From Alcanivorax limicola (GTDB lineage: Bacteria; Pseudomonadota; Gammaproteobacteria; Pseudomonadales; Alcanivoracaceae), in the NCBI RefSeq assembly GCF_019931215.1, contig NZ_JAIOUB010000002.1:434001-498000 (forward strand): a DNA stretch of 64,000 nucleotides. Direction: 5' to 3'. The position numbers and the translations under genes were made by a program. The first letter of the stretch is position 1; every line of letters begins with the position of its first letter. This document shows, one piece after another, positions 4,251 through 30,741 of the stretch. The notes beneath the pieces are model-generated. The model had not been told where the DNA came from. It made no database searches and was given only the letters and a program-made list of their open reading frames with translations.

Positions 4251-7200
4251 ATGCGTGACATGACGCAAGACAAGGCAGCAATTTCCGTAACACAGCCCGG
4301 CGGGTTGAACGATAATCCCCCACCCGTGATGACGCGCCTGCGCCGCGCCGGGCGCCCGATGCGCATCACCATTTCCGCGACCTTGTTGCTGTTTCTCAAT
4401 GCGATGATCTGGCCTTCGTGGGCGGTAGCCATTGAGATTGACCGCCTGCGCACAGAGCAGGCACAGCAAATATGGGAAGCAAAGAACCGGGATCTGGATC
4501 AGGTGCTTCTGCATATCCAGCAGGAAGCCAGGGGAAAAGCGGAGATCATACAGGCGCGCCTCAGCGATGAGTCTGGCCTGATGGAACGCGCACTTGGCTT
4601 GTTTGGTCTGAGTCGGCTGGCACTGGAGAGGACCGATGAACTCCAGCGCCTGGCGGAGCGTGCCGGTGATCTGCGCGGGAAGGCGGAACGGGAACTGAAT
4701 GCCACACGCCAGCATATACTGGGTAAAGGCCTGCCAGAAGAAATCCTGGCCCGACACGACCAGGCAGCGGCCGATTTCAGCGCGGCATTTGATGGCATGC
4801 AACATCGTCTGGAAGCGCTGCGCAGTGCCCGTTCGTTAACAGAGCAGTCTTCCGCATCCGATGCGCTGCGTCAGCAGATGGAAGGCTTCACCCAGGAAAA
4901 ACCGCGTGACCCGTTTGACCCCAATAACCTGCCCTGGGGCACCCCCGACCCGAGCCTCACACCGGAGCCGGCGCTTTCCGCCGCCGAACTCAGCGCGCGC
5001 ACCGGGCTGCCCTTGTTTGAGCAAGGCGAGCAGCTAGCCACCCATGTCATCCTCCCCGGCATGCTCGGCCAGCCTGGCGGCCCAACGCAAGCGGACCTGG
5101 ACGAAACGCTGGATGCCCAGATTACGCCCGCCATCATCGCACTGGCGGAGGAGTTGAACCATGAGCCGGCGGCCATTTATCAGTGGGTGCGTAACAACAT
5201 CGAATTCATCCCCAGCTACGGCTCCATCCAGGGCTCGGACTACACCCTGCAAAACGGCAAAGGGAATGCATTCGATACCGCCTCTTTGCTAATTTCCCTG
5301 CTGCGCGCCTCCAATATCCCGGCCCGTTACGCGTTCGGTACGGTACAGATTCCCGCTGATCAGGTAATGAACTGGGTCGGTGGTGTCAACGTGCCAGAGG
5401 CCGCCGGCAATCTGATGGGCCAAGGTGGCATCCCCAATGTGGCTCTGGCCACGGGGGGCAATATTTCCCATTTCAAGCTGGAGCATGTCTGGGTGGAAGC
5501 CTGGATAGATTACCACCCCAGCCGTGGCGCCTCGCATGTGGCGGGTGACACCTGGGTGCCGATGGATGCGAGTTTCAAGCAGTACGAGTATAGCGAAGGC
5601 ATTGGGCTGGACGATGCGGTGCCTTTTGATGCGGAAGGTCTGGTACATATTATCGAGCAGCAAAGCACTATTAACGAGCAGCAAGGTTGGGTACAGGGCG
5701 TGCCTCAGGCGGAAGTAGAACAAGCTCTGGAAGACTACCGTCAGGAGCTGGAACAGTATCTTGATGACCAGCATGAGGATGCCAGTGTTGGTGATGTACT
5801 GGGTATGCGGGATATCAAGACGGTTATCCGGGAAACCCTGGCAGCTTCTCTCCCTTATGAATTGGTCACCCGCCAATTGGTGACCGCCGAACTGCCGGAT
5901 AATCTGCGCTGGAAATTCTCCTATCAGCTTAGCACAAGCCTGTATGGTCAGCCTGGCAGCACCTTGTTGAGGGTTGCCGAGCCGACGGTCTCCTTGGTGG
6001 GACAGCCGCTGGCGTTGTCTTTCCGACCTGCCACGGAAGCGGATGAGCAGACCCTTGCCAGCTTCCTGCCTGAAGCGGATGAAAACGGGGAGATTGATCC
6101 GCAGGATATTCCAAGAACTCTACCGGGCTACCTGGTCCGGCTGACGGGAGAATTCAGCATCGGTGGTGAAACCGTGGCCACGGCCAGTGGCAATACGACT
6201 ATGGGCACGGAACTGATAACAGAAAAGGGCTATTGGCAACCTGGCCGAGGTTGGCAGATGTCTCGAAATCAGCCTGTGGCGGGCGAGTATCGGGCTGTCG
6301 CGCTGGATCTGCAAGGTATCAGCGCGCAGCAAGCCGCTGCAGTGCAAGCGGAGCTGGAAACGACCCGGCTGCGGCTAGAGGCCGAGGAGTATACCGGTCT
6401 GACCAAGAAGCACCTTGCGGGCAATGTCCTTTACAGCACCATTCTGAGCTACTTTGCGGTAAATAATATCCAGAATGAAATTGCTGCAAGGCAGGCTGGC
6501 ATCATTGACTACCGTGCGCCGAGTTATGGCTTGTTCAAGACCAGTCTGGCACCCTTGTACTGGTTTGGTCTTCCACGAAATGTGAGAATCAACGGCCTGA
6601 CCATGGATGTTGACCGTTACCAGAGCTACCGAGTGCATGAAAATAACGATCACGATCAATGGGTGGCCTTCAATCGGGCTATGGGTTCACAGATGTCGGC
6701 GATGGAGCATCTGGTGCCTGAGGAAATGTTTTCTACGGAAGAGGCGCCAGCGCATGGGATCAGTGCTGTTAAAGCGATTCAACTTGCGGTGGTGGAAGGG
6801 CAGCGCATCTGGACCATTACCCGAGACAACTTGAACGAAGCACTGGCTGCGAGTCAACTTCCTGGCAAGGCCCAAACTGATATTCGCAATTCTGTGTTGG
6901 CGGGGATGGAAGTGACGGCACATGAGAAACCCGTAAATTTCTTTGGTAAAGAATCCACAGGGTATATTGTGCTTAACCCGGAGACAGGTGCGGGGGCTTA
7001 TCTTATTGGGAGTGGTGAGAATGGAGGTGAATTATCAACGCCAGGAGGAACGGATATTATATCATGGCTGCTTAGCATTTTGGATGAATTTGGTAGAAAC
7101 CCCTTGCTGAAAAAGTTTGGCGGCTTGTTAAGTGAACTAATTACAGCAGTAAATCTCTTTAAGGATATCAGCAGTTGTGGCTATGCTTATGGCTTGGCCA

Positions 7201-20774: not shown

Positions 20775-21305
20775 CTATTCAGCCAGATACTGATCTTTCA
20801 GCTTCACATAGTTACCTGCCACGTACGGCAGGAACTCCAGCTCCTCCTGCGTCAGCGGACGCACCGAGTGGGCCGGCCGGCCCCGGTACAGGTAGCCGGA
20901 GCGCAGGGACTTGCCGGGCGGCACCAGCGAGCCGGCGGCCAGGATCACGTCGTCGCCGATCTTTGCCCCGTCCATCACCATGGCCTGCATGCCGATCATG
21001 ACCCGGTCGCCGATATGGCAGCCGTGCAGCATGGCCTGGTGAGCAATCGTCACGTCATCCCCGATAGTGAGCGCAAACCCACCGGGATAGAACCGGGAGT
21101 CATGGGTGATGTGCAGCACCGCGTTGTCCTGCACGCTGCAGCGCGCGCCCAGCTCGATAAAGTGCATGTCGCCACGGATCACCGCCCCTGGCCACACCGA
21201 ACAATCTGCCCCCAACGTCACATCGCCGATCACCTGCGCCGACGGGTCCACCCATACCCCTGCCCCACACTGCGGCGCCTTGCCTGAAAACGACCGAACT
21301 GCCAT
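20775..21305 (-). CDS. Gamma-class carbonic anhydrase-like hexapeptide protein
   Basis: A 176-residue left-handed beta-helix protein with many hexapeptide repeats (for example VIGDVTLGADCSVWPGAVIRGD). The His residues expected to bind metal are present (HITHDS, ITIAHQAMLHGC). It belongs to the YrdA/CaiE-like gamma carbonic anhydrase group. Reversible CO2 hydration is known for some members only, so activity is not certain. It is divergent from prlC, a neighbour arrangement also seen in pseudomonads. Confidence 0.9.
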   Translation of the reverse strand: MAVRSFSGKAPQCGAGVWVDPSAQVIGDVTLGADCSVWPGAVIRGDMHFIELGARCSVQDNAVLHITHDSRFYPGGFALTIGDDVTIAHQAMLHGCHIGDRVMIGMQAMVMDGAKIGDDVILAAGSLVPPGKSLRSGYLYRGRPAHSVRPLTQEELEFLPYVAGNYVKLKDQYLAE

Positions 21306-21423
21306 ATCGTTGTATCCCCTGCGGCCCCTGCCGGATCAATTCACCTTGAACGAACGCCGTCCGTCCCAATCTCATGTACTACACTGTCCGTCACTATACG
21401 GCGATCGCACACCAGGAGCATTC

Positions 21424-23487
21424 ATGAGCACCAATCCCCTGATCGACTACCCCGGCCTGCCCCCCTTCTCCGCCATCAAGCCCGAGCATGTGGAGCCCGC
21501 CGTGGAAGCCCTGATCGAGGCCGGGCGCGAACGCATCAAGGCCCTGCTCGCCAGCGGCGGCCCCTACACCTGGGCCAACCTCGTGCAGGCCATGGACGAA
21601 GAAGACGACCGCCTGGGCAAAGCCTTCGGCCCCGCCGGCCACCTCAATGCCGTGGCCCAGAACGACGCCCTGCGCAACGCCTACAACGCCTGCCTGCCCA
21701 AGCTGTCTGAATACGGCACCGAAGTGGGCCAGAACGCCGAGTTGTTTGCCGCCTACCAGAGCGTGCGCGACGGCGACGAATTCGCCACCCTGACCCCCGC
21801 CCAGCAAAAAGACCTGGACGACACCCTGCGCGACTTCCGCCTCTCCGGCGTGGACCTGCCCGCCGAGCGCAAGGCCGAGTACATGGCCAACAGCAAACGC
21901 CTGTCTGAACTGACCTCGCGCTTCTCCGACAATGTGCTCGATGCCACCCAGAGCTGGCGCAAACACATCACCGACGAGAGCGAACTGGCCGGCCTGCCCG
22001 ACGTTGCCAAAGCCGGCGCCGCCGACAAGGCCGCCGAAGAAGGCCTGGAAGGCTGGCTGCTGACCCTGGATTTTCCGTGCTACTACGCGGTGCTGTGCCA
22101 CGCTACCAATCGCGCCCTGCGCGAAGAAATGTACCGCGCCCACTGCACCCGTGCCTCCGATCAGGGCCCAGATGAGGGCAAGTTCGACAACAGCCCCCTG
22201 ATGGACGAGATCCTGCGCCTGCGCCACACCCAGGCCCGCCTGCTGGGCTTCAACAGCTACGCTGAAAAGTCCCTCGCCACCAAAATGGCTCGCGACGTGG
22301 ACGAAGTGCTGACCTTCCTGCGCGACCTCGCCCGCCGCGCCAAGCCCCAGGCCGAGAAAGAACTGGCCGAGCTGAAAGCCTTCATGGCCGAACAGGGCGC
22401 AGCCGGCGAAGACGCCGACCTGCAACCCTGGGATATCGGCTTCTGGAGCGAACGCCTGCGCGAAGCCCGCTACAGCACCTCCGAAGAAGCCCTGCGCCCC
22501 TGGTTTCCCGCCGAGAAAGTCATCAACGGCATGTTCGCCGTGGTGGAAAAGCTGTTCGCCATCCGCATCAAGGCCCGCGACGGCGTCGATACCTGGCACC
22601 CCGACGTGCGCTACTACGATGTGTTCGACGACAGCGGCACCCTGATGGCCGGCTTCTACCTGGACATGTACGCCCGCACCGGCAAACGCGGCGGCGCCTG
22701 GATGGACGACTGCCTGGTACGCCGCCGCCGCACCGACGGCGACCTGCAACTGCCCGTGGCGTACCTGTCCTGCAACTTTGCCCCGCCTGCCGGCGGCAAG
22801 CCCGGCCTGCTGACCCACGACGAAGTGACCACCCTGTTCCACGAATTCGGCCACGGCCTGCACCACATGCTGACCGAACAGGAAGTCAGCGGCATCTCCG
22901 GCATCAACGGCGTTGCCTGGGACGCCGTGGAGCTGCCCAGCCAGTTCATGGAGAACTGGTGCTGGACCGAAGAAGGCATCCGCCTGATCTCCGGCCACTA
23001 CGAAACCGGCGAACCCCTGCCCGCCGAAGAACTGCAGAAAATGCTCGCCGCCAAGAACTTCCAGAGCGGCATGGGCATGCTGCGCCAGATCGAATTCTCC
23101 CTGTTCGACATGCGCATCCACGCCGAATACACCGATGGCCGCGACGGCAACCCCCTGAGTATCCAGCAGGTGCTCGACGAAGTGCGCGACGAAGTCGCCG
23201 TGATCAAGCCCCCCGCCTTCAACCGCTTCCAGAACGGCTTCGGCCACATCTTTGCGGGCGGCTACGCCGCAGGCTACTACAGCTACAAATGGGCCGAAGT
23301 GCTCTCTGCCGATGCCTACGCCCGCTTCGAAGAAGAAGGTGTGTTCAACCCCGACACCGGCCGCGCCTTCCGCGAACACATCCTGGCCATGGGCGGCAGC
23401 AAGGAACCCATGGAGCTGTTCAAGGCCTTCCGCGGCCGCGAACCCAGCGTAGAACCCCTGCTGCGCCACTGCGGCATCGCCGCATGA
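21424..23487 (+). CDS. prlC: Oligopeptidase A (M3 metallopeptidase)
   Basis: A 687-residue cytosolic zinc peptidase. The M3 zinc motif HEFGH is at residues 473-477, and the third ligand is probably E503 in the VELPSQ segment. The start at MSTNPLIDYPGLPPF gives the expected length and N-terminus; an open frame extends far upstream antisense to the carbonic anhydrase and was not used. The enzyme degrades short peptides, including cleaved signal peptides. It overlaps the YheV-like gene by 4 bp (ATGA). Confidence 0.96.
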   Translation: MSTNPLIDYPGLPPFSAIKPEHVEPAVEALIEAGRERIKALLASGGPYTWANLVQAMDEEDDRLGKAFGPAGHLNAVAQNDALRNAYNACLPKLSEYGTEVGQNAELFAAYQSVRDGDEFATLTPAQQKDLDDTLRDFRLSGVDLPAERKAEYMANSKRLSELTSRFSDNVLDATQSWRKHITDESELAGLPDVAKAGAADKAAEEGLEGWLLTLDFPCYYAVLCHATNRALREEMYRAHCTRASDQGPDEGKFDNSPLMDEILRLRHTQARLLGFNSYAEKSLATKMARDVDEVLTFLRDLARRAKPQAEKELAELKAFMAEQGAAGEDADLQPWDIGFWSERLREARYSTSEEALRPWFPAEKVINGMFAVVEKLFAIRIKARDGVDTWHPDVRYYDVFDDSGTLMAGFYLDMYARTGKRGGAWMDDCLVRRRRTDGDLQLPVAYLSCNFAPPAGGKPGLLTHDEVTTLFHEFGHGLHHMLTEQEVSGISGINGVAWDAVELPSQFMENWCWTEEGIRLISGHYETGEPLPAEELQKMLAAKNFQSGMGMLRQIEFSLFDMRIHAEYTDGRDGNPLSIQQVLDEVRDEVAVIKPPAFNRFQNGFGHIFAGGYAAGYYSYKWAEVLSADAYARFEEEGVFNPDTGRAFREHILAMGGSKEPMELFKAFRGREPSVEPLLRHCGIAA

Positions 23488-23702
23488 GCGTGCTACGCCG
23501 CTTTATTGCCGGCGCCACCTGCCCCGAGTGCGGCGCCCTGGACAAGATCGTGCGTGTCCAGGACGGCGACAGCCTGTGGATGGAGTGTGTGGCCTGCGAT
23601 ATGCGGAAGGATCTGGATGCTGAACCGGCTCCTGCCCCGGCGCCGCCTGAAGGCGGTGAAGGCGGAGGGGGCAGCCCGGTGGTGTGGAAATCGGGCAAGT
23701 AG
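23484..23702 (+). CDS. YheV-like zinc-ribbon protein
   Basis: A 72-residue protein with two Cys pairs, CPEC and CVAC, 24 residues apart, forming a zinc ribbon, followed by a Pro/Gly-rich flexible tail. It matches the YheV/DUF2387 family. The ATG overlaps the prlC stop (ATGA), so it is translationally coupled. Its role is unknown; the prlC-yheV pairing is conserved in related bacteria. It marks the last typical high-GC gene before the cassette region. Confidence 0.85.
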   Translation: MSVLRRFIAGATCPECGALDKIVRVQDGDSLWMECVACDMRKDLDAEPAPAPAPPEGGEGGGGSPVVWKSGK

Positions 23703-23882
23703 GCCGATGATGGCAAAGTGCTATCACTTGAAATAAATATTCCTTCCGGTATTACTTACATCACATAAGAAATGAGACGGGCGTCACGTTGGGGCGTGGT
23801 GCTCGTGTATGGGGGCTGATTGTGCTGGGGAGTGCGATTTATGGCGCTGGCCCAGCCAGCTAATTGAGATAAGGAGACTAAG

Positions 23883-24101
23883 ATGCAAAGATTCATTGTG
23901 AATAAGAATCAGCAGTCGAATGGAGATCATGAAGTTCACAACGTGTCTGCGGGATGTTCATATATGCCAAATCCTGAAAACCAAGTTGATTTGGGCTATC
24001 ACAGTTCATGTCATGGGGCCGTTTCTGACGCAAAGCGCCGCTGGCCGGGAAAGAGAATAAACGGCTGCTACTACTGTGCTAATGCATGTCATACAAGCTA
24101 G
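23883..24101 (+). CDS. Small Cys/His-rich cassette protein of unknown function
   Basis: A 72-residue protein with a strong ribosome-binding site (AAGGAGACTAAG) directly before ATG. It carries six Cys/His-rich positions, including CSYMP, YHSSCHG and the C-terminal CYYCANACHTS, which could bind a metal. It has no signal peptide or membrane helix. The stop is immediately followed by an attC site, so this is the first recognisable gene cassette. I do not recognise a characterised family. Confidence 0.75.
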   Translation: MQRFIVNKNQQSNGDHEVHNVSAGCSYMPNPENQVDLGYHSSCHGAVSDAKRRWPGKRINGCYYCANACHTS

Positions 24102-24103
24102 CA

Positions 24104-24181
24104 CCATAACCAAGCAATTAAATTCGCTCTCTACGGCCGCCGGACGCTCCTTCCTTGCGCCGTTTATTGCGGGCGTTATGT
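24104..24181 (+). repeat. attC site 1
   Basis: It runs from the 5' core ending CATAAC (24104-24110) to the 3' core GTTATGT (24175-24181), 78 bp. The arms are imperfectly complementary: the left GCAATTAAATTCGC pairs with the reverse complement of the right GCGCCGTTTATTGC. This is the folded-hairpin architecture used by integron integrases. Confidence 0.8.
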
Positions 24182-24202
24182 TTCCGGAGTGGAGCAAAGA
24201 AA

Positions 24203-24664
24203 GTGAATTGGGAATCGATCTTCATAAAAGATTATCTAGGTGATAGAAATCTCTTTATGAGAGAAAAATGGCTTAATGTAGCCAGCTACATCCGAAGATT
24301 GCGAAAGAGCACAAGAAAAGATGAGGTTCTCAGTCTTTTGGAGGCGGAGCTAGCATTCAACAATAGATGGGCAGATAAGACGAGATCAAAACTAGAAAGC
24401 AAAAAATTGGATGCAAGCGCCAAATCACGATTCTACTTAGTCTTGGATACTCATGCAAAAAAACATAGAGAAAGAACAGTCTTCTTGGTTGTATATGGGG
24501 CGCTAGTGGCTGTCGTTCTAAAGTTGTTGCTTCCTGACGCCTATGTAGCTTTCTATTTAGTATTCGTTGCATTTCTTTTAGCTTTTGAGAGAATTTTTTC
24601 TGGCAATGTCATAGCGGCCCTCGAGGAGCTGAAGAGTATTGTGGATTCTACAAATAAAACATAA
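24203..24664 (+). CDS. Cassette-encoded two-helix membrane protein, unknown function
   Basis: A 153-residue protein. The GTG at 24203 has GGAG eight bases upstream; an earlier in-frame codon lies inside attC site 1 and was rejected. The first ~105 residues are charged and helical (RRLRKSTRKDEV, ESKKLDASAKS). Two adjacent transmembrane helices follow (about 108-148), then a short cytoplasmic tail. The stop TAA lies within the 5' core of the next attC. No family is recognised. A cytoplasmic helical domain plus paired C-terminal helices is a form seen among membrane-acting effector proteins, but nothing specific supports that here. Confidence 0.7.
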   Translation: MNWESIFIKDYLGDRNLFMREKWLNVASYIRRLRKSTRKDEVLSLLEAELAFNNRWADKTRSKLESKKLDASAKSRFYLVLDTHAKKHRERTVFLVVYGALVAVVLKLLLPDAYVAFYLVFVAFLLAFERIFSGNVIAALEELKSIVDSTNKT

Positions 24665-24777
24665 CAAAGCGCTGCAGAGCGACGGTCAACTTTATGCACT
24701 TTGTGCAGCAGTCGCTGCGCTGCCATGATCGCGCATAAAGCGCCCAAAGTTGTCCGCGCCTGAGCGCGGCGTTATGT
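24659..24777 (+). repeat. attC site 2
   Basis: A 119-bp element from ACATAAC (24659-24665) to GTTATGT (24771-24777). The outer 7-mers are exact inverse complements. The inner arms also pair: GGTCAACTTTATG on the left with the complement of CCCAAAGTTGTCC on the right. It is the best-formed attC of the array. Confidence 0.85.
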
Positions 24778-24811
24778 GCCCCCTCCCCCGTACTGCCAAT
24801 AGGGATATATT

Positions 24812-27145
24812 GTGAGTCGACATAGTAAGTCCAGACGAGATGCTAAAAAAAAGAAAGCAAAGAAAAGCCGGAACCGTCTTAAATCGAACAATAACATTGC
24901 TAAGAAACCAATTTCCTCTGGCCCGGTGATGACAATGATGGAAAACCCTCTGTCTGGCATTACTGATGAACAGAGGAAAGAGTTGATTTCAGAATTAGGA
25001 AAAAATGGTAAAGACAAGGTTGTTGAGATATTTGAATCGTTGAACGATGTATTGAGGCAGTATGACCCTATAACCCTAATAAGTATTCTCTCAGGCTATG
25101 GTTTGACTGTTGGAGCCGGTGAAGGTGGAGTGCAATCAAAAGAATTATCCGGGGGGTTAAACCAAGCGCATGTAGAGCTATTTCAGGCGCTTGCTCTACA
25201 GATACCAGAGAATGAGCTCGGCGCGCTCCCTGTCACTCCTGACATAGTTCAGAATGTATGGGAGAAATTAACCGAAATAAGTTATGCCTTTAAATGCAGT
25301 AGAATGAATGTAGAGCTATTGGAGTCTTCCAATATTGAAATGGCCATCAATCAGATCCAAGAGTTGATACGAAGTCATACTCAAATGGTTAGAAATTGGG
25401 GTTTTCATTCTCAGGTGGTTGGCATTTCAAAGGAAATATATAGTCACTTTGATGGGCTAATTCAAAATAAGTTTGGTTTTTCAGCCACAAATGCCATTGA
25501 TTTTTTTAAAGTGCTGACTGACCATATAGAGGGAAATCTTTCTGAAAGGTTTAATATTCTATCCGATCTGAAGTCCACGAAAAAACCGTACGACATGCTG
25601 GTTAAATATCATGAATTAATTGGACAAGGAAAAGAGGAGGCTGATAGGTTTTCCAAAAATATTGATATAAATAATATTTCGCAAAAGAATCTTTTTTTTA
25701 TGCTTCTATCGCATTTCGATCTTGGGATGTCTGACTATTACTTCGTCGATAGTGATGAATTGTCGACGCAATTGGATCTTGATAAAGATATTGTCGATAA
25801 TGTTCTAAATCACTTTTCATATCGATTCGGCGATCTTGGTGGTGAAAAGAAAGAATTTTTCTTTTTGGAAAACCCTGTGTGGAAGAGGCCAATAATTTCA
25901 TCAAGTAGTGGGTATTATTGCGTATTGCCTCAGCTGTTTTTCAGCTTTGTTCTAAACACACTAGATGAAATTGTTGAGGGAATAGATAAGAACTCTCTCC
26001 ACAACCGGCGAGCTGATTACCTTGAGTCGAAGATTGAAGAAATTGTTAAAAAAAGATTTCCTGAGTCACAAGTAGTTTCAGGCCTTAAATGGCGTCTAGG
26101 TGAAGCTCAGTATGAAACTGACCTGATTGCATTCATTGACTCTCATGCAATTATTATTGAAGCGAAATCACAGAAAATATCGAGACCCGCCTTAAGAGGT
26201 GCGCCGGATCGAATAAAGAGGCACCTTGAGCAAATCTTAATAGAGCCAGGAATTCAGTCGAGTCGATTAGAGCAAAGGCTTAACGAGCTTAGGGTTCAGG
26301 ATGCGCCTGATGACCCTCTTCTAACAAAAATCCCTGTAGATATACATTCTATAAATAAAGTACTTCGCGTTTCAGTGTCTCTAGAAGATTTTGCTACTCT
26401 TCAAACGAATTTGAGGTTATTTAATGATGCAGGTTGGATTCCAAATGATTTCGCACCTTGCCCTTCAATGAATCTCGCCGATTTTGAAACATTATTTGAT
26501 TTTCTTGAGCACCCTGTCCAAATTATTCACTACCTTCTGAGAAGAACTGAACTTGAAGGCAAGTACAAGTTTATGGGGGATGAACTCGATTATATGGGGC
26601 TATACATTACTACCTTGCTGAATGTTGGAAATATGGTAAGCGATGATAAAGCTGAAATCATAATATCGGGAATGTCTGAGCCGTTAGATAAATACTATAT
26701 GTCAAAAGACCAAGGTATATTAATTGATAAACCGCAACCCAAAGTATCTCCGTTATTCAAGAAAATATTTAGAAAGCTTGAGGAGCGATCTAATCCTCGC
26801 TGGACGGAGATCGGATGCATATTAAATCGTTTCCCTCCAGATGACCAGAGCAATCTAACTAGATATATAAAGGACTTGTCCAGATTGGTAAATAGAAATT
26901 GGCAAGTCGATGGCCATAAAAATATTGCTGTATATAGACCGCCAGAATCATCAGAGTATGCTTTGGCTGTCGTATTATTTAAGGAAAAAAATCGAGATAG
27001 GCGCTACGAGTTTATTGATCATGCTTCTGCACTGGGTCTAGAGCCTGAACATGTCAGATATTGTTTGATTATAGCAATCAATATCGATAAAGATGACTTG
27101 CCATATCACTATATAGCACTAGCAGAAAATCGAGATGCCGAATAA
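24812..27145 (+). CDS. Large cassette protein with PD-(D/E)XK nuclease-like motif
   Basis: A 777-residue protein from a GTG preceded by AGGGA seven bases upstream. The N-terminus is strongly basic (many Lys/Arg/Ser in residues 1-35), then helical. Around residues 420-460 a nuclease-like core is visible: D437 in ETDLIAF, followed by E450-A-K452 at the end of a hydrophobic strand (IIIEAK), the D...ExK arrangement of PD-(D/E)XK enzymes and of NERD domains. The C-terminal ~250 residues have no recognised motif. The gene is very AT-rich and lies between attC sites 2 and 3, in a cassette of ~2.4 kb, unusually large. It is a candidate DNA-cleaving or defence protein; this is inference from the motif. 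Confidence 0.75.
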   Translation: MSRHSKSRRDAKKKKAKKSRNRLKSNNNIAKKPISSGPVMTMMENPLSGITDEQRKELISELGKNGKDKVVEIFESLNDVLRQYDPITLISILSGYGLTVGAGEGGVQSKELSGGLNQAHVELFQALALQIPENELGALPVTPDIVQNVWEKLTEISYAFKCSRMNVELLESSNIEMAINQIQELIRSHTQMVRNWGFHSQVVGISKEIYSHFDGLIQNKFGFSATNAIDFFKVLTDHIEGNLSERFNILSDLKSTKKPYDMLVKYHELIGQGKEEADRFSKNIDINNISQKNLFFMLLSHFDLGMSDYYFVDSDELSTQLDLDKDIVDNVLNHFSYRFGDLGGEKKEFFFLENPVWKRPIISSSSGYYCVLPQLFFSFVLNTLDEIVEGIDKNSLHNRRADYLESKIEEIVKKRFPESQVVSGLKWRLGEAQYETDLIAFIDSHAIIIEAKSQKISRPALRGAPDRIKRHLEQILIEPGIQSSRLEQRLNELRVQDAPDDPLLTKIPVDIHSINKVLRVSVSLEDFATLQTNLRLFNDAGWIPNDFAPCPSMNLADFETLFDFLEHPVQIIHYLLRRTELEGKYKFMGDELDYMGLYITTLLNVGNMVSDDKAEIIISGMSEPLDKYYMSKDQGILIDKPQPKVSPLFKKIFRKLEERSNPRWTEIGCILNRFPPDDQSNLTRYIKDLSRLVNRNWQVDGHKNIAVYRPPESSEYALAVVLFKEKNRDRRYEFIDHASALGLEPEHVRYCLIIAINIDKDDLPYHYIALAENRDAE

Positions 27146-27147
27146 TC

Positions 27148-27216
27148 ACATAACAAATCCATCAATTTGACCGCCTTACGCTGCGCTTCAGGCGGCAAAT
27201 TATGGCGGCGTTGGTA
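27148..27216 (+). repeat. attC site 3
   Basis: A 69-bp element from ACATAAC (27148-27154) to GTTGGTA (27210-27216). The left CATCAATTTGACCGCCT pairs with the right AGGCGGCAAATTATG. The 3' core departs from the GTTRRRY consensus at its last two positions. Confidence 0.78.
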
Positions 27217-27235
27217 GCCCAGTGGGAATTTAGCC

Positions 27236-28129
27236 ATGGATAGAACGTCGGAAACCGGAATTCTTCTTTATGCCCAAGGAGAGGCGTTTGACGAACGCGT
27301 CTTCGATCTTCGCTCCCTTGAGCTCGTTCTCACGAACTATAGGCTTATCGTTGACCACCTGTTACCCCTAGCAGTTGGTCAGAAGACGCTTACGGACCGA
27401 CTGAAGAATGATGTTAAGTATGAAGTTGGAGTCAAAAATGGCTCTCTGGAAGTAGTACTGAATTTCATTCTCGAGAATCCAGAGTTGCTTGTGGCTGCTG
27501 CAGCAACAGACGGAGGTCATCAAATCGCATCTTTCATAGCTAAGATGATCAAGGGAGTTGTGGAGCTACGACGCGCCTTAAATGCAGTTCTCGAGAATGG
27601 CAAGAAGCCGGCTATTCACATTGACCAGTCTTTTCATCAAGACAATAGCGTGCAGGAAGACAATAGCGTTACTTGTAACATCACGACTGGCGATATAAAC
27701 CTGACAAATCCAATTCTAGTCATCGGCGCAGATTTGACGAAGCCTGCAATAGACAGGTTAATAAATGGCATTGACGGAACGAAAATTAGTGGGGTGAACC
27801 TCGCACACAAAGATATCGTAACGAGCCTGACTCTCCCGGATCGCGATATAACGGGCGCCCAAAAAGAGGAGCTTGGTACTCAAATTGAGGTGATGGGACG
27901 ATTAGATATGGCCGCAATCACATCCCACAAAGCGCATATTGTTACAGGAAACAGCAGATACCCAGTTACGTGGGATGAATCGCTCCGCCCGAAAATTAGA
28001 AAATTCTTCGATTTGGAAGGAATCGTTTTTAAGGTTCGTCCCATAGTTGATCACAGGCAGTTCAAAGGTGAACCTGTGGGCTTTCATGTTCTTGATTGTT
28101 GGTCTCCACAGGCGAGGCTTGATGTTTAG
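27236..28129 (+). CDS. Cassette-encoded protein of unknown function
   Basis: A 297-residue soluble protein beginning MDRTSETGILLYAQGEAFDERVFDL. It has a charged N-terminal domain, a hydrophobic helix around 75-105 (LLVAAAATDGGHQIASFIAKMIKGVV) and a beta-rich C-terminal half. A short repeat QDNSVQEDNSV sits in the middle (about 136-147), a probable linker between two domains. The ATG is 20 bp after attC site 3, and the ribosome-binding site is weak. I do not recognise the family. The two-domain form, with a repeated linker before a compact C-terminal domain, could be a sensor-effector pair, but no motif supports a specific function. Confidence 0.7.
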   Translation: MDRTSETGILLYAQGEAFDERVFDLRSLELVLTNYRLIVDHLLPLAVGQKTLTDRLKNDVKYEVGVKNGSLEVVLNFILENPELLVAAAATDGGHQIASFIAKMIKGVVELRRALNAVLENGKKPAIHIDQSFHQDNSVQEDNSVTCNITTGDINLTNPILVIGADLTKPAIDRLINGIDGTKISGVNLAHKDIVTSLTLPDRDITGAQKEELGTQIEVMGRLDMAAITSHKAHIVTGNSRYPVTWDESLRPKIRKFFDLEGIVFKVRPIVDHRQFKGEPVGFHVLDCWSPQARLDV

Positions 28130-28135
28130 CGTTGC

Positions 28136-28233
28136 TAATAACAATGCGTTCCAAACGTAGAATGTAGTTCTCCCAATGCCTTAGGCGCTTCTACGCTAGG
28201 ATCTAACTTATCTTCGCGCGGAGAATGTTGAGA
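28136..28233 (+). repeat. Degenerate attC-like site ending the array
   Basis: The left half TAATAACAATGCGTTCC resembles the 5' half of classical attC sites, and a GTTGAGA at 28227-28233 could be the 3' core. Pairing between the arms is poor, and an inner CGTAGAA/TTCTACG repeat is present. It is probably a decayed attC. Confidence 0.35.
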
Positions 28234-28262
28234 TGGTTGTATATACCATGCTATGAGATTGT

Positions 28263-28748
28263 ATGAAAAATAGGGTATTAATAGCAGTGCTCATGGCCGC
28301 ACACCTCCTGATGATGCAGGGGTGCGTTGGTCTAGTGATCGGAACATATGGCAAGCATGAGAAGGACTTAGAGTATCCCTGGGGCAGCATTGTTATAACA
28401 AACAAAAGGGGGCCCGGAAGTGCTCGGCAAGAAGTGCTGAGACAACACGGAGAGCCAGATAAAGCATACGAGTACGGAAACTGCGAAGTGCTTGTGTATC
28501 CGGGCGGTTTTTCCTGGGCGGGTGCAGGGGCTTTCACTGTGCTTTTCCCCGTTCCGCTCCTTGTGCCTACCGGTCGCTATGAAACCAGAGTGTATATCAG
28601 GGATGGGGAAGTATCACAGGTGATTCGTGAGCACGGGGATGTCGGATGGATGTTCGGCGGTTATTGTGGCTCCAATTCCTGCCACTTTTTTCCGGGAGGA
28701 TCTCCGCCTTGGATGTCCGGCCCGCGAGATGCACAGGTACGATGCTGA
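28263..28748 (+). CDS. Putative lipoprotein next to the cassette array
   Basis: A 161-residue protein with a lipoprotein signal peptide: basic start, hydrophobic core and lipobox LMMQGC, so Cys21 would be lipidated. The mature part contains RQEVLRQHGEPDKAYEYGNCEVLVYPGG, similar in style to small SmpA/OmlA-like outer-membrane lipoproteins, with several Gly/Pro-rich stretches and Cys residues at the C-terminus. It is followed 38 bp later by the DUF3883 gene. No specific function can be assigned. Confidence 0.75.
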   Translation: MKNRVLIAVLMAAHLLMMQGCVGLVIGTYGKHEKDLEYPWGSIVITNKRGPGSARQEVLRQHGEPDKAYEYGNCEVLVYPGGFSWAGAGAFTVLFPVPLLVPTGRYETRVYIRDGEVSQVIREHGDVGWMFGGYCGSNSCHFFPGGSPPWMSGPRDAQVRC

Positions 28749-28786
28749 TATAGGCAGACTCTTAGCGTAACGGGGATAGCACAACC

Positions 28787-29644
28787 ATGGCGAACAATTG
28801 GTCCGAACAAGAGGTGGCAGAGACTGTCGCTGACTATTTTGCGATGCTTCGTCAGGAGCTCCTCGGCGAAAAGTACAATAAAGCCATGCATCGCAGGGCG
28901 CTTATGAAGAAGCTGAGTGGGCGATCTAATGGCTCCGTTGAGCTGAAACACCAAAATATAAGCGCTGTACTTATTGAAATGGGTATTCCATGGATTGAGG
29001 GATACAAGCCGAGATCGAACTATCAACGTTCGTTGCTGCCTGCAATGGTGGCAGAATATCTGAAAGCGCATCCTGATCTGCAAGCACTCTTCCACAAAGA
29101 TGTGCAGAGAGTGCCTAATACTCCGTCAGTTGAGGACTTTCTGGCGGTTATGGAGAGCCCGCCATCATCAGAGCCGCGTGGCGCCAGTAATAGCGGAGAG
29201 GTTCGCGAGGTGCCTAGCCTGTATAACCCCGCTGGCGTGAATTACCTTGAAAGAGAGGCTCAGAACCAGGCCCTGGGTGAAGCAGGTGAGCAGTTCGTGA
29301 TGAATTTTGAGCGAGCGCGGTTAATCTATGCGGGTAGGCAGGCATTGGCTGATCAGATCGAGCAAGTTTCCCTCACCATCGGTCCCTCGGCTGGCTTTGA
29401 TATTCGGTCTTATGAGGAGAATGGCAAAGATCGGTTTATCGAGGCGAAAACGACGAAGTATGGTAAAAGTACGCCTTTCTTTGTTACGCCGAATGAGCTT
29501 CGCTTTTCGAAGGTGAATGAAGCATCTTACTACCTGTATCGCCTTTTTGGATTCCGCGATACTCCTCGTCTCTTCACACTACAGGGGCATTTAGAAGATA
29601 AATGTATACTTGTTCCGTCAGAGTATTCGGCCCGAGCCCGTTAA
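28787..29644 (+). CDS. DUF3883 (NOV C-terminal-like) protein, PD-(D/E)XK-type fold
   Basis: A 285-residue protein. The N-terminal third is helical and predicted cytoplasmic. The C-terminal region (about 165-285) fits the DUF3883 domain, with D205 in GFDIRSY and E219-A-K221 in RFIEAKTT, the D...ExK spacing of restriction-endonuclease-like folds, then TPNELRFSK. DUF3883 domains occur in restriction and phage-defence proteins as well as in isolated genes. The first ~80 residues may be a DNA- or protein-binding module. It lies 35 bp before the NERD gene, probably co-transcribed. Confidence 0.8.
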   Translation: MANNWSEQEVAETVADYFAMLRQELLGEKYNKAMHRRALMKKLSGRSNGSVELKHQNISAVLIEMGIPWIEGYKPRSNYQRSLLPAMVAEYLKAHPDLQALFHKDVQRVPNTPSVEDFLAVMESPPSSEPRGASNSGEVREVPSLYNPAGVNYLEREAQNQALGEAGEQFVMNFERARLIYAGRQALADQIEQVSLTIGPSAGFDIRSYEENGKDRFIEAKTTKYGKSTPFFVTPNELRFSKVNEASYYLYRLFGFRDTPRLFTLQGHLEDKCILVPSEYSARAR

Positions 29645-29679
29645 TTACTCTGAAGCGGCTTGACAATTGGGGGTGATTT

Positions 29680-30459
29680 TTGGGGAGTGGCGATCAGGCG
29701 GGGGAGGCGCTGTTTCTTGCTTTCTTATTCGTTATTGCGACGATCATAGGGCTCATTCTTCGGTCTGCTTGGTTTAAGGGGGCTGTTGGTGAAAGCCTAG
29801 TCAAAGCAGGGGCCGGAGTTGCTTTGCCATCTAGCGCTTACTTTTCGCTTCATGATGTGACGCTACACGCAAGCGGTGGAAGCACGCAGATAGATCATAT
29901 TATCGTGTCTCGCTATGGCATATTTGTGATTGAAACCAAAAACATGAAGGGATGGATATTCGGGGGCGCTAGGTCGCCAGAATGGAAGCAAGTGCTCTAT
30001 AAGAAATCATATACGTTCCAAAATCCACTTCGGCAAAACTATAAGCACACAAAGGCCGTAGAGGAAATTACCGGCCTGCCAAAAAATGCCATCCATTCTG
30101 TAGTCGCCTTTATGGGCCCATGCGAGTTGAGGTCTAAGCTTCCGCCCAATGTAGAGAAAGGCTTTGGCTACATCTCATATATAAAATCTTTCAAGGCCAC
30201 GCTGCTTACGGTTGAGGATGTGAATGGCGCGATACGTGCCATCCACGAGGGCCGCCGCCCGGCCACGTTTAAAACTAGAGCCGAGCACGTCAGAAATCTG
30301 AAGATGAGAGCTGCGCCGCAACAAACAGCGGATGTGGCATGCCCCCTTTGCGGTAACGCTATGGTCCGCCGTGTGGCCAAGAATGGACTGCGAGCAGGCC
30401 TCCCATTTTGGGGGTGCTCAAGATATCCCGCGTGCCGAGGCATTACCAATATCGACTAG
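29680..30459 (+). CDS. NERD-domain protein with C-terminal topoisomerase-type zinc finger
   Basis: A 259-residue protein. The TTG start at 29680 is the earliest possible (an in-frame stop is just upstream) and follows GGGGGTGA. An N-terminal membrane helix (about 7-28) is followed by a NERD nuclease-related domain, with D72 in TQIDHIIV and E85-T-K87 in VIETKN. The C-terminus carries a four-Cys zinc ribbon (C221, C224, C246, C252) like the zf-C4 modules of topoisomerase I. NERD proteins are thought to act in DNA processing. The gene is the third ExK-type protein within this 6-kb stretch. Confidence 0.85.
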   Translation: MGSGDQAGEALFLAFLFVIATIIGLILRSAWFKGAVGESLVKAGAGVALPSSAYFSLHDVTLHASGGSTQIDHIIVSRYGIFVIETKNMKGWIFGGARSPEWKQVLYKKSYTFQNPLRQNYKHTKAVEEITGLPKNAIHSVVAFMGPCELRSKLPPNVEKGFGYISYIKSFKATLLTVEDVNGAIRAIHEGRRPATFKTRAEHVRNLKMRAAPQQTADVACPLCGNAMVRRVAKNGLRAGLPFWGCSRYPACRGITNID

Positions 30460-30741
30460 CTAAGACCACCCGAACACCAACTCCTCATCCTTGCTGAACC
30501 GCTGCAAATGATCCGCCACTACGCCCTTCAGTTCGTCGGCACCCGCCTGTGTTGGGTGTTCGATACGCACATCCAGTACGGCGTCAGAGGCTTGCAGCCA
30601 TGTCCGCACTTCGTCGCTAAAGGGCACCAGCAAGCGCCCCGCTTCCATCTCTACCTCGAACTTGTGGCCCCAATGCCGCCCCAGGCGGGTCAGCAGCCGC
30701 TGGGCTTGGGGAGTCTCCAGTCGTGCGTGAACGATTGCCAT
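30460..30741 (-). CDS. DUF2218 family protein
   Basis: A 93-residue protein fitting DUF2218: an alpha/beta fold with TRLGRHWGHKFEVE and a C-terminal HLQRFSKDEELVFGW. Members are often iron-regulated and found near siderophore genes; no siderophore genes are in this window. It starts at an ATG with AGAGGA upstream. A Fur-like box lies ~50 bp upstream of the start, fitting iron control. Confidence 0.85.
   Translation of the reverse strand: MAIVHARLETPQAQRLLTRLGRHWGHKFEVEMEAGRLLVPFSDEVRTWLQASDAVLDVRIEHPTQAGADELKGVVADHLQRFSKDEELVFGWS

Follow-up and report, generated by a model that had tools for sequence, protein, structure and literature searches.

In the textbook integron, one integrase stands beside one attI site. 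Behind the prlC-type oligopeptidase A gene of Alcanivorax limicola lies a row of genes that had been read, from the sequence by itself, as an integron cassette array with no integrase gene (CALIN). We asked whether these genes are indeed cassettes and how an array came to stand at this locus. The window referred to below is the whole 64 kb stretch of DNA that was analysed.

A variable region behind prlC

Local alignment with relatives places the variable region at about 23847-30461, between conserved flanks (Table 1). The oligopeptidase A gene on its left was present in 35 of the 37 relatives searched, and its true start is probably later than the listed GTG. The DUF2387 gene that follows aligns with sister species. 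GC content per kb is 0.38-0.53 across 24 to 31 kb and mostly 0.57-0.68 in the surroundings, in agreement with the AT-rich, same-strand ORFs of the sequence-only reading. Rfam gave no match in the window at its gathering thresholds.

Relatives of the cassette 1 protein were found in 16 plasmid records at 37-75% identity; the plasmids belong to Vibrio, Citrobacter, Escherichia, Gordonia and others. The attC model R2 (see below) found no match in three plasmid stretches checked around these relatives. The cassette 2 protein has, by eye, two hydrophobic stretches close to its C-terminus. The match of the cassette 3 protein to NF047931 reached 22 bits (E 7e-5), far under the cut-off of 320. ORF 4 is probably the last cassette, its own attC lost or absent, because it follows directly after the third attC site. 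The candidate PDC-S36 gene, whose product carries a NO VEIN C-terminal domain (PF13020, 64.3 bits), and the NERD/zinc-ribbon gene lie in the variable region along with the cassettes, yet have no attC.

Table 1. Coordinates of the window features, and of associated elements in relatives (window positions unless a locus or genome is named)
Feature	Position	Strand	Evidence or remark
prlC-type oligopeptidase A gene	21106..23487	+	conserved left flank; NCBIfam PRK10911, 973.5 bits (cut-off 927)
small DUF2387 gene, final gene ahead of the variable region	23484..23702	+	Pfam PF09526, 40.8 bits (query was a longer ORF)
intergenic left flank common to sister species	23703..23846	.	local alignment; homology ends at 23846
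cassette 1 gene, 72 aa Cys-rich protein	23883..24101	+	PHROG phrog_4298, E 4e-24, unknown function
attC site 1, 78 bp	24104-24181	+	R2 43.2 bits; fold z -2.42
cassette 2 gene, 153 aa	24203..24664	+	no significant family
attC site 2, 119 bp	24659-24777	+	R2 45.3 bits; fold z -3.92
cassette 3 gene (ORF 3), 777 aa	24812..27145	+	faint similarity to anti-phage protein GapS1
attC site 3, 69 bp, divergent	27148-27216	+	R2 14.2 bits; fold z -1.71; between ORF 3 and ORF 4
ORF 4, 297 aa	27236..28129	+	no family; no attC detected behind
lipoprotein-like ORF, 161 aa, in variable region	28263..28748	+	no family; no attC
candidate anti-phage gene (PADLOC PDC-S36), in variable region	28787..29644	+	PDLC05008, 345.7 bits; no attC
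NERD nuclease-related domain and zinc ribbon gene, in variable region	29680..30459	+	PF08378, 101.7 bits; PF01396, 34.5 bits; no attC
conserved right flank	30460..30741	-	homology resumes at 30464 (G005), 30462 (G001)
block copies	L107:8206-8391, L065:10990-11166, and 18 others in genus loci		
attI copies per genome			window genome 7, G005 5, G006 6, G003 8, G004 1, G001 6, G002 0
intI remnants beside attI	L066, L068, L108, L113, L121		

Two strong attC sites and a weaker third

Two attC covariance models, R1 and R2, were built in this analysis and are distinct from the attC model of IntegronFinder. R1 was made from nine sites of relatives, picked by eye with a permissive motif and fold scan that served only for choosing seeds. 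Two of eleven seeds were omitted from it owing to misalignment by MAFFT, and R2 later scored both (26.3 and 28.6 bits). R2 was made from 50 R1 matches (E <= 0.003) at loci of relatives and at other loci of the same genome. The window and L111 lay outside that search, and the training set holds no window sequence.

On the 64 kb, R2 matched site 2 at E 1e-8, site 1 at E 3e-8 and site 3 at E 0.37, E-values that are rough by a property of the tool. Beyond these three it gave no match in the whole 64 kb up to E 10. For a single strand of the 90 bases that separate ORF 3 from ORF 4, we calculate a chance of about 3e-4 for a match like site 3. Folded as single-stranded DNA, sites 1, 2 and 3 were equalled by 3, 0 and 9 of 200 shuffles. 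The candidate fourth site (28126-28233) was rejected, with no R2 match up to E 10 and a fold z of 0.07 (105 of 200 shuffles). A stricter motif scan kept the 119-bp site alone among sites 1-3; it missed the 78-bp and 69-bp sites because one side of each differs from the textbook core. By eye, site 1 looks like an attC of the intact integron of G003, a sister species. In the 50-site alignment, the L-box has five arm pairs with 19-29 compensatory sequences at each, a covariation that leans to the model since the alignment was fitted to it. The sequence-only reading had counted three well-formed attC sites and a degenerate fourth, and had proposed a covariance-model search as its check. That search, run with R2, upholds sites 1 and 2 strongly and site 3 weakly; the fourth falls away.

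No integron integrase was found in the genome

The integron-integrase family TIGR02249 was run over the whole genome (10 contigs, listed as 100% complete) and gave 0 matches above the cut-off, window included. The two sub-threshold matches that it gave belong to other families: one is XerD, at 376.2 bits against the XerD cut-off of 329.6, and one is XerC, at 354.3 bits against the XerC cut-off of 335.15. The claim that the window has no intI thus holds for the genome as well, and the recommended look for intI elsewhere gave a result consistent with a CALIN. The suggestion that an integrase elsewhere could mobilise the array is not borne out within its own genome, where XerC and XerD are the sole candidates. 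Among the seven genus genomes (the window genome and sister species G001-G006), intact intI was found in G003 only (410.8 bits), and short intI fragments in G003, G002 and G006. These genomes are single representatives, several of them drafts, so an intI may lie on an unassembled plasmid.

The window array is a CALIN, as had been proposed, since it has two strong attC sites and a weaker third and no intI was found in window or genome. It fits the definition published in PMC9024848, as far as that source sets out the class, in having two or more attC, same-strand cassettes and no intI nearby. Neither intI nor attI lies at the window locus, as they would in a complete integron. The homogeneous, species-specific attC of a sedentary chromosomal integron are likewise not seen in sites of 78, 119 and 69 bp that score 43.2, 45.3 and 14.2 bits. 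Most sister arrays bear attI, and the IntegronFinder classes complete, In0 and CALIN, in the part of their description that names them, have no separate name for such arrays.

Sister species carry attI at the same locus

Behind prlC and the DUF2387 gene, attI is found in four of the six sister species (G003, G004, G005 and G006); G001 and G002 have none at the prlC locus. G004 and G005 continue about 200 bases past the point matching 23846, into an attI that is absent from the window. Because the homology of the window to these two breaks at 23846, before attI, either attI was lost at the window locus or the array was rearranged. At this locus G004 and G005 share 1462 bp of upstream flank at 96.0% identity and 0 of 3000 bases downstream. 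The same genes without attC in relatives had been named as an observation that would speak against a cassette array. In a partial test of this, the prlC-locus cassettes of relatives differ, and a tblastn search of the genus loci compared, at E <= 1e-4, matched none of seven window proteins to anything but the window's own sequence. Rather than an isolated island, the window array is the attI-less member of a dispersed set of cassette arrays.

attI copies are dispersed and outnumber integrases

The motif at prlC of G003-G006 reads CGTCGTTATT..ATAT..G..C...CGTYCTAAT..CTG, followed by GTTA or a similar core; GTTA stands directly after it in most copies. The same motif sits between the intact intI of G003 and the first cassette, ending at the GTT core. 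In G003, G038 and G023, which belong to two genera, its distance from an intact intI is 164-178 bp. In the second genus, the distance is 177-178 bp from two intact intI (G038, G023) whose proteins are 74% identical to the G003 IntI. Since in G003 it separates an intact intI from the first cassette, and in a second genus it stands beside intI, the dispersed motif is the predicted attI of the G003-type integrase.

With up to three mismatches allowed, 33 copies were found in six of the seven genus genomes, and a reversed-pattern control gave 0. The copies of the window genome make up six loci, all outside the window locus. A narrower, exact genus-form pattern matched only two Alcanivorax genomes, G003 and G001, in a collection of named genomes without the near relatives of the window. 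A second pattern, which covers two other genera as well, gave 77 copies and a control of 0; the copies lie in 27 of the 46 family genomes. Among these 27 genomes, several of them drafts, intI exceeded the cut-off in 9 and did not in 18, so that attI sites outnumber integrases in the family. Intact intI lies upstream of one of the 33 genus copies, and remnants of 26-117 residues lie beside five. In the other two genera, no intI match was found within up to 2.5 kb upstream of 22 copies examined; these represent 20 loci out of 53 copies, those known to lie beside intI having been left out.

Cassettes follow attI and differ between orthologous docks

We call the loci with dispersed attI docks. All 65 R2 matches in the genus loci lie downstream of attI and on its strand (72 matches less two in the window, two L111 duplicates and three from motif-less loci). 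At least one attC match (E 0.05) was found at 21 of the 30 genus attI loci and none at the other 9. In the two other genera, 38 of 39 matches were downstream and co-oriented and 19 of 20 loci had one, a tally that omits four matches in the intI loci L069-L071. The window genome has same-strand attC matches at five of its six attI loci in addition to the window. Its whole-genome attC count is at least 17, from 150 of 1520 candidates scored, and misses window site 1. A further locus of this genome, after a pnp-like gene (L142/L174), carries the block (see below) and an attI-like sequence with a deletion, with no attC match.

One cassette is present both at attI in the intact integron of G003 and inside array L105 of the window genome (450 of 472 bases, 95.3%). 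It begins exactly at GTTATGC and ends at an attC core, and the sequence outside it is unrelated. A second is present at two docks of the intI-less G005 (407 bases, 93.1%). Three other shared segments that were examined are not clean single cassettes, and among the shared segments besides both cassettes, two have ends that are not at attC cores. The dock loci are orthologous between species. We compared the first 3 kb past attI in 17 orthologous pairs whose upstream flanks are 66-97% identical (longest match): 9 share 0 bases, 5 share at most 79 and 3 share 195-1533. Replacement of arrays by homologous recombination could mimic such a turnover of cassettes.

The repeats behind attI in L128 and L123 were rejected as attC on account of their REP-element appearance by eye. 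Downstream of attI, these two loci have REP-like repeats and an apparent REP-associated transposase gene by the docks, again by eye.

A companion block precedes many docks

In front of many docks of the genus lies a block some 180 bp long. In L065, a profile search located it immediately after the stop codon that ends the intact intI of G003 (44.1 bits, E 5.5e-12), which points to block, intI, attI and cassettes as the ancestral order. The block often begins right past the stop or terminator of a flanking gene in the same direction; by eye these genes resemble alkB, pnp, typA and rsmE. BLAST gave 24 matches to the block, some of them partial, in five of the seven genus genomes; the 39 other family genomes had none. 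It remains where intI and, at some loci, attI too have gone. Blocks mostly cluster by locus across species; the G001 pnp, G001 alkB and locF copies are exceptions and form no clean locus clades. The profile search detected no block at the typA-like or prlC docks. The by-eye idea that 23703-23846 of the window is a divergent block was dropped, as the window gave no match and the best score at the prlC locus was 0.2 bits (G004/G005).

In the predicted fold, 97.5% of cells pair across 20 block copies. The covariation score, with the structure derived from the same alignment that was tested, was 0.193 vs 0.143, was reached by none of 500 shuffles, and came to no more than 0.055 when slid. One measure, the number of pairs with changes on both sides (5 vs 3.2, 56 of 500 shuffles), was within chance, and the other four measures were reached in 0, 0, 11 and 0 of 500 shuffles. 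The block appears structured-RNA-like, and Rfam gave no match to it at gathering thresholds.

L172 (G001:C5:163000-181500) holds three block copies inside 9 kb and no recognisable attI. In L170 near 5881-5928 and L107 near 8391, a terminator and the start of the block recur some 10 kb downstream of the dock, in the way that recombination of a circular molecule might leave them.

Origin of the array

We give a probability of about 0.8 to the reading that the window holds a decayed integron array at prlC-DUF2387 whose attI was deleted, in a family whose dispersed docks were probably filled in trans. On this reading, a G003-type IntI would once have put cassettes into the prlC attI, and attI, together with any intI, would then have been lost in a deletion reaching from 23846 to the beginning of cassette 1, freezing the array. 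Family-wide, arrays would hang on many dispersed attI modules per chromosome, and because most of these lack intI, several docks were probably served in trans by a single integrase or a transient one. A broader proposal, which we offer tentatively and at somewhat less than even odds, is a multi-dock integron in Alcanivorax-type bacteria, in which IntI fills many chromosomal attI modules in trans and the window array is a dock since stripped of its attI. The dock would be the spreading, conserved unit (the intI upstream region and attI, with the block in one genus), and the integrase would be rare and transient in the population.

The attC sites could be chance hairpins or REP-like repeats; such repeats exist by eye at two relatives' loci (L128 and L123), site 3 is weak by itself and the fourth site is no attC. 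We consider this highly improbable, given E-values of 1e-8 and 3e-8 from an independent training set and the agreement of strand and position in all 65 matches of relatives. It is also improbable, though less so, that the window is an ordinary isolated CALIN formed by off-target insertion of cassettes at an attG-like site and never linked to attI here. Off-target attG insertion is described in the passages of PMC12444791 on that subject, and the window itself has no attI. Against this stand the attI at the same locus in four of six sister species and the break in homology about 200 bases ahead of it.

A nearer competitor, to which we give something short of an even chance, takes each attI module as the relic of a separate complete integron minus its own intI, with none served in trans. 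The intI remnants at five copies (L066, L068, L108, L113 and L121) fit this view and show that some docks once had their own intI. In L065 the block directly follows the stop of intact intI, so that block and attI bracket the place where intI is expected, and the docks are old, since blocks group mostly by locus across species. Such a history needs many parallel losses, and modules far outnumber intI genes family-wide. Moreover, cassettes changed after the species split, yet no intI was found in six of the seven genus genomes, and one cassette is present at two docks of the intI-less G005. In sequence, separate relics and filling in trans can both be true. Turnover might instead come from strains exchanging whole loci by homologous recombination, with no integrase at work on the docks, a reading that we think rather unlikely. 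Flanks and modules common to loci could recombine, second modules occur in tandem at L106, L126, L128, L186 and L192, the second copy in L106 is preceded by a repeated flanking gene end, and a terminator and block start recur about 10 kb away. Against this, each of the two shared cassettes runs from one recombination core to another, and the DNA to either side of it is unrelated. Given the tandem docks and the duplicated pieces of flank, strains probably exchange DNA by homologous recombination as well.

Relation to known integrons

The Vibrio-type sedentary chromosomal integron usually has one platform per chromosome. It resembles the present arrays in its chromosomal position and its many hypothetical-protein cassettes; here, in contrast, short arrays stand on several platforms, and the window attC differ in length and sequence. 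The closest parallel is in Xanthomonas, for which PMC12444791, in its account of that genus, describes an ancestral integron, widespread loss of intI and CALINs at seven other loci of the chromosome that different species have in common. CALIN positions there are conserved after the loss of intI, as here; the attI passages of that paper mention no attI copies at those loci, whereas the present docks carry attI in three genera. attG insertion, as treated in the same passages, likewise puts cassettes at many chromosomal places, but what precedes the present arrays is no minimal genomic target; it is an attI module, conserved and about 150-390 bp long. We found dispersed attI described for neither Alcanivorax nor its family in the open-licence PMC literature.

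Modest in itself, the window array is of interest for having led to the scattered docks. Should docks be filled in trans, arrays that lack an integrase would not simply be dead, and a passing integrase could refill several loci together. The dispersed docks offer a direct route for testing the activity of attI-bearing CALINs.

Sequence features of the docks

A by-eye impression of a sigma-70 promoter in the dock was discarded, as a consensus scan found none in two docks. In L175-L194, from the two other genera, attI contains by eye an inverted repeat whose arms differ by genus yet remain complementary: GAAGCCGGC/GCCGGCTTC in one and GACGCCGGC/GCCGGCGTC in the other.
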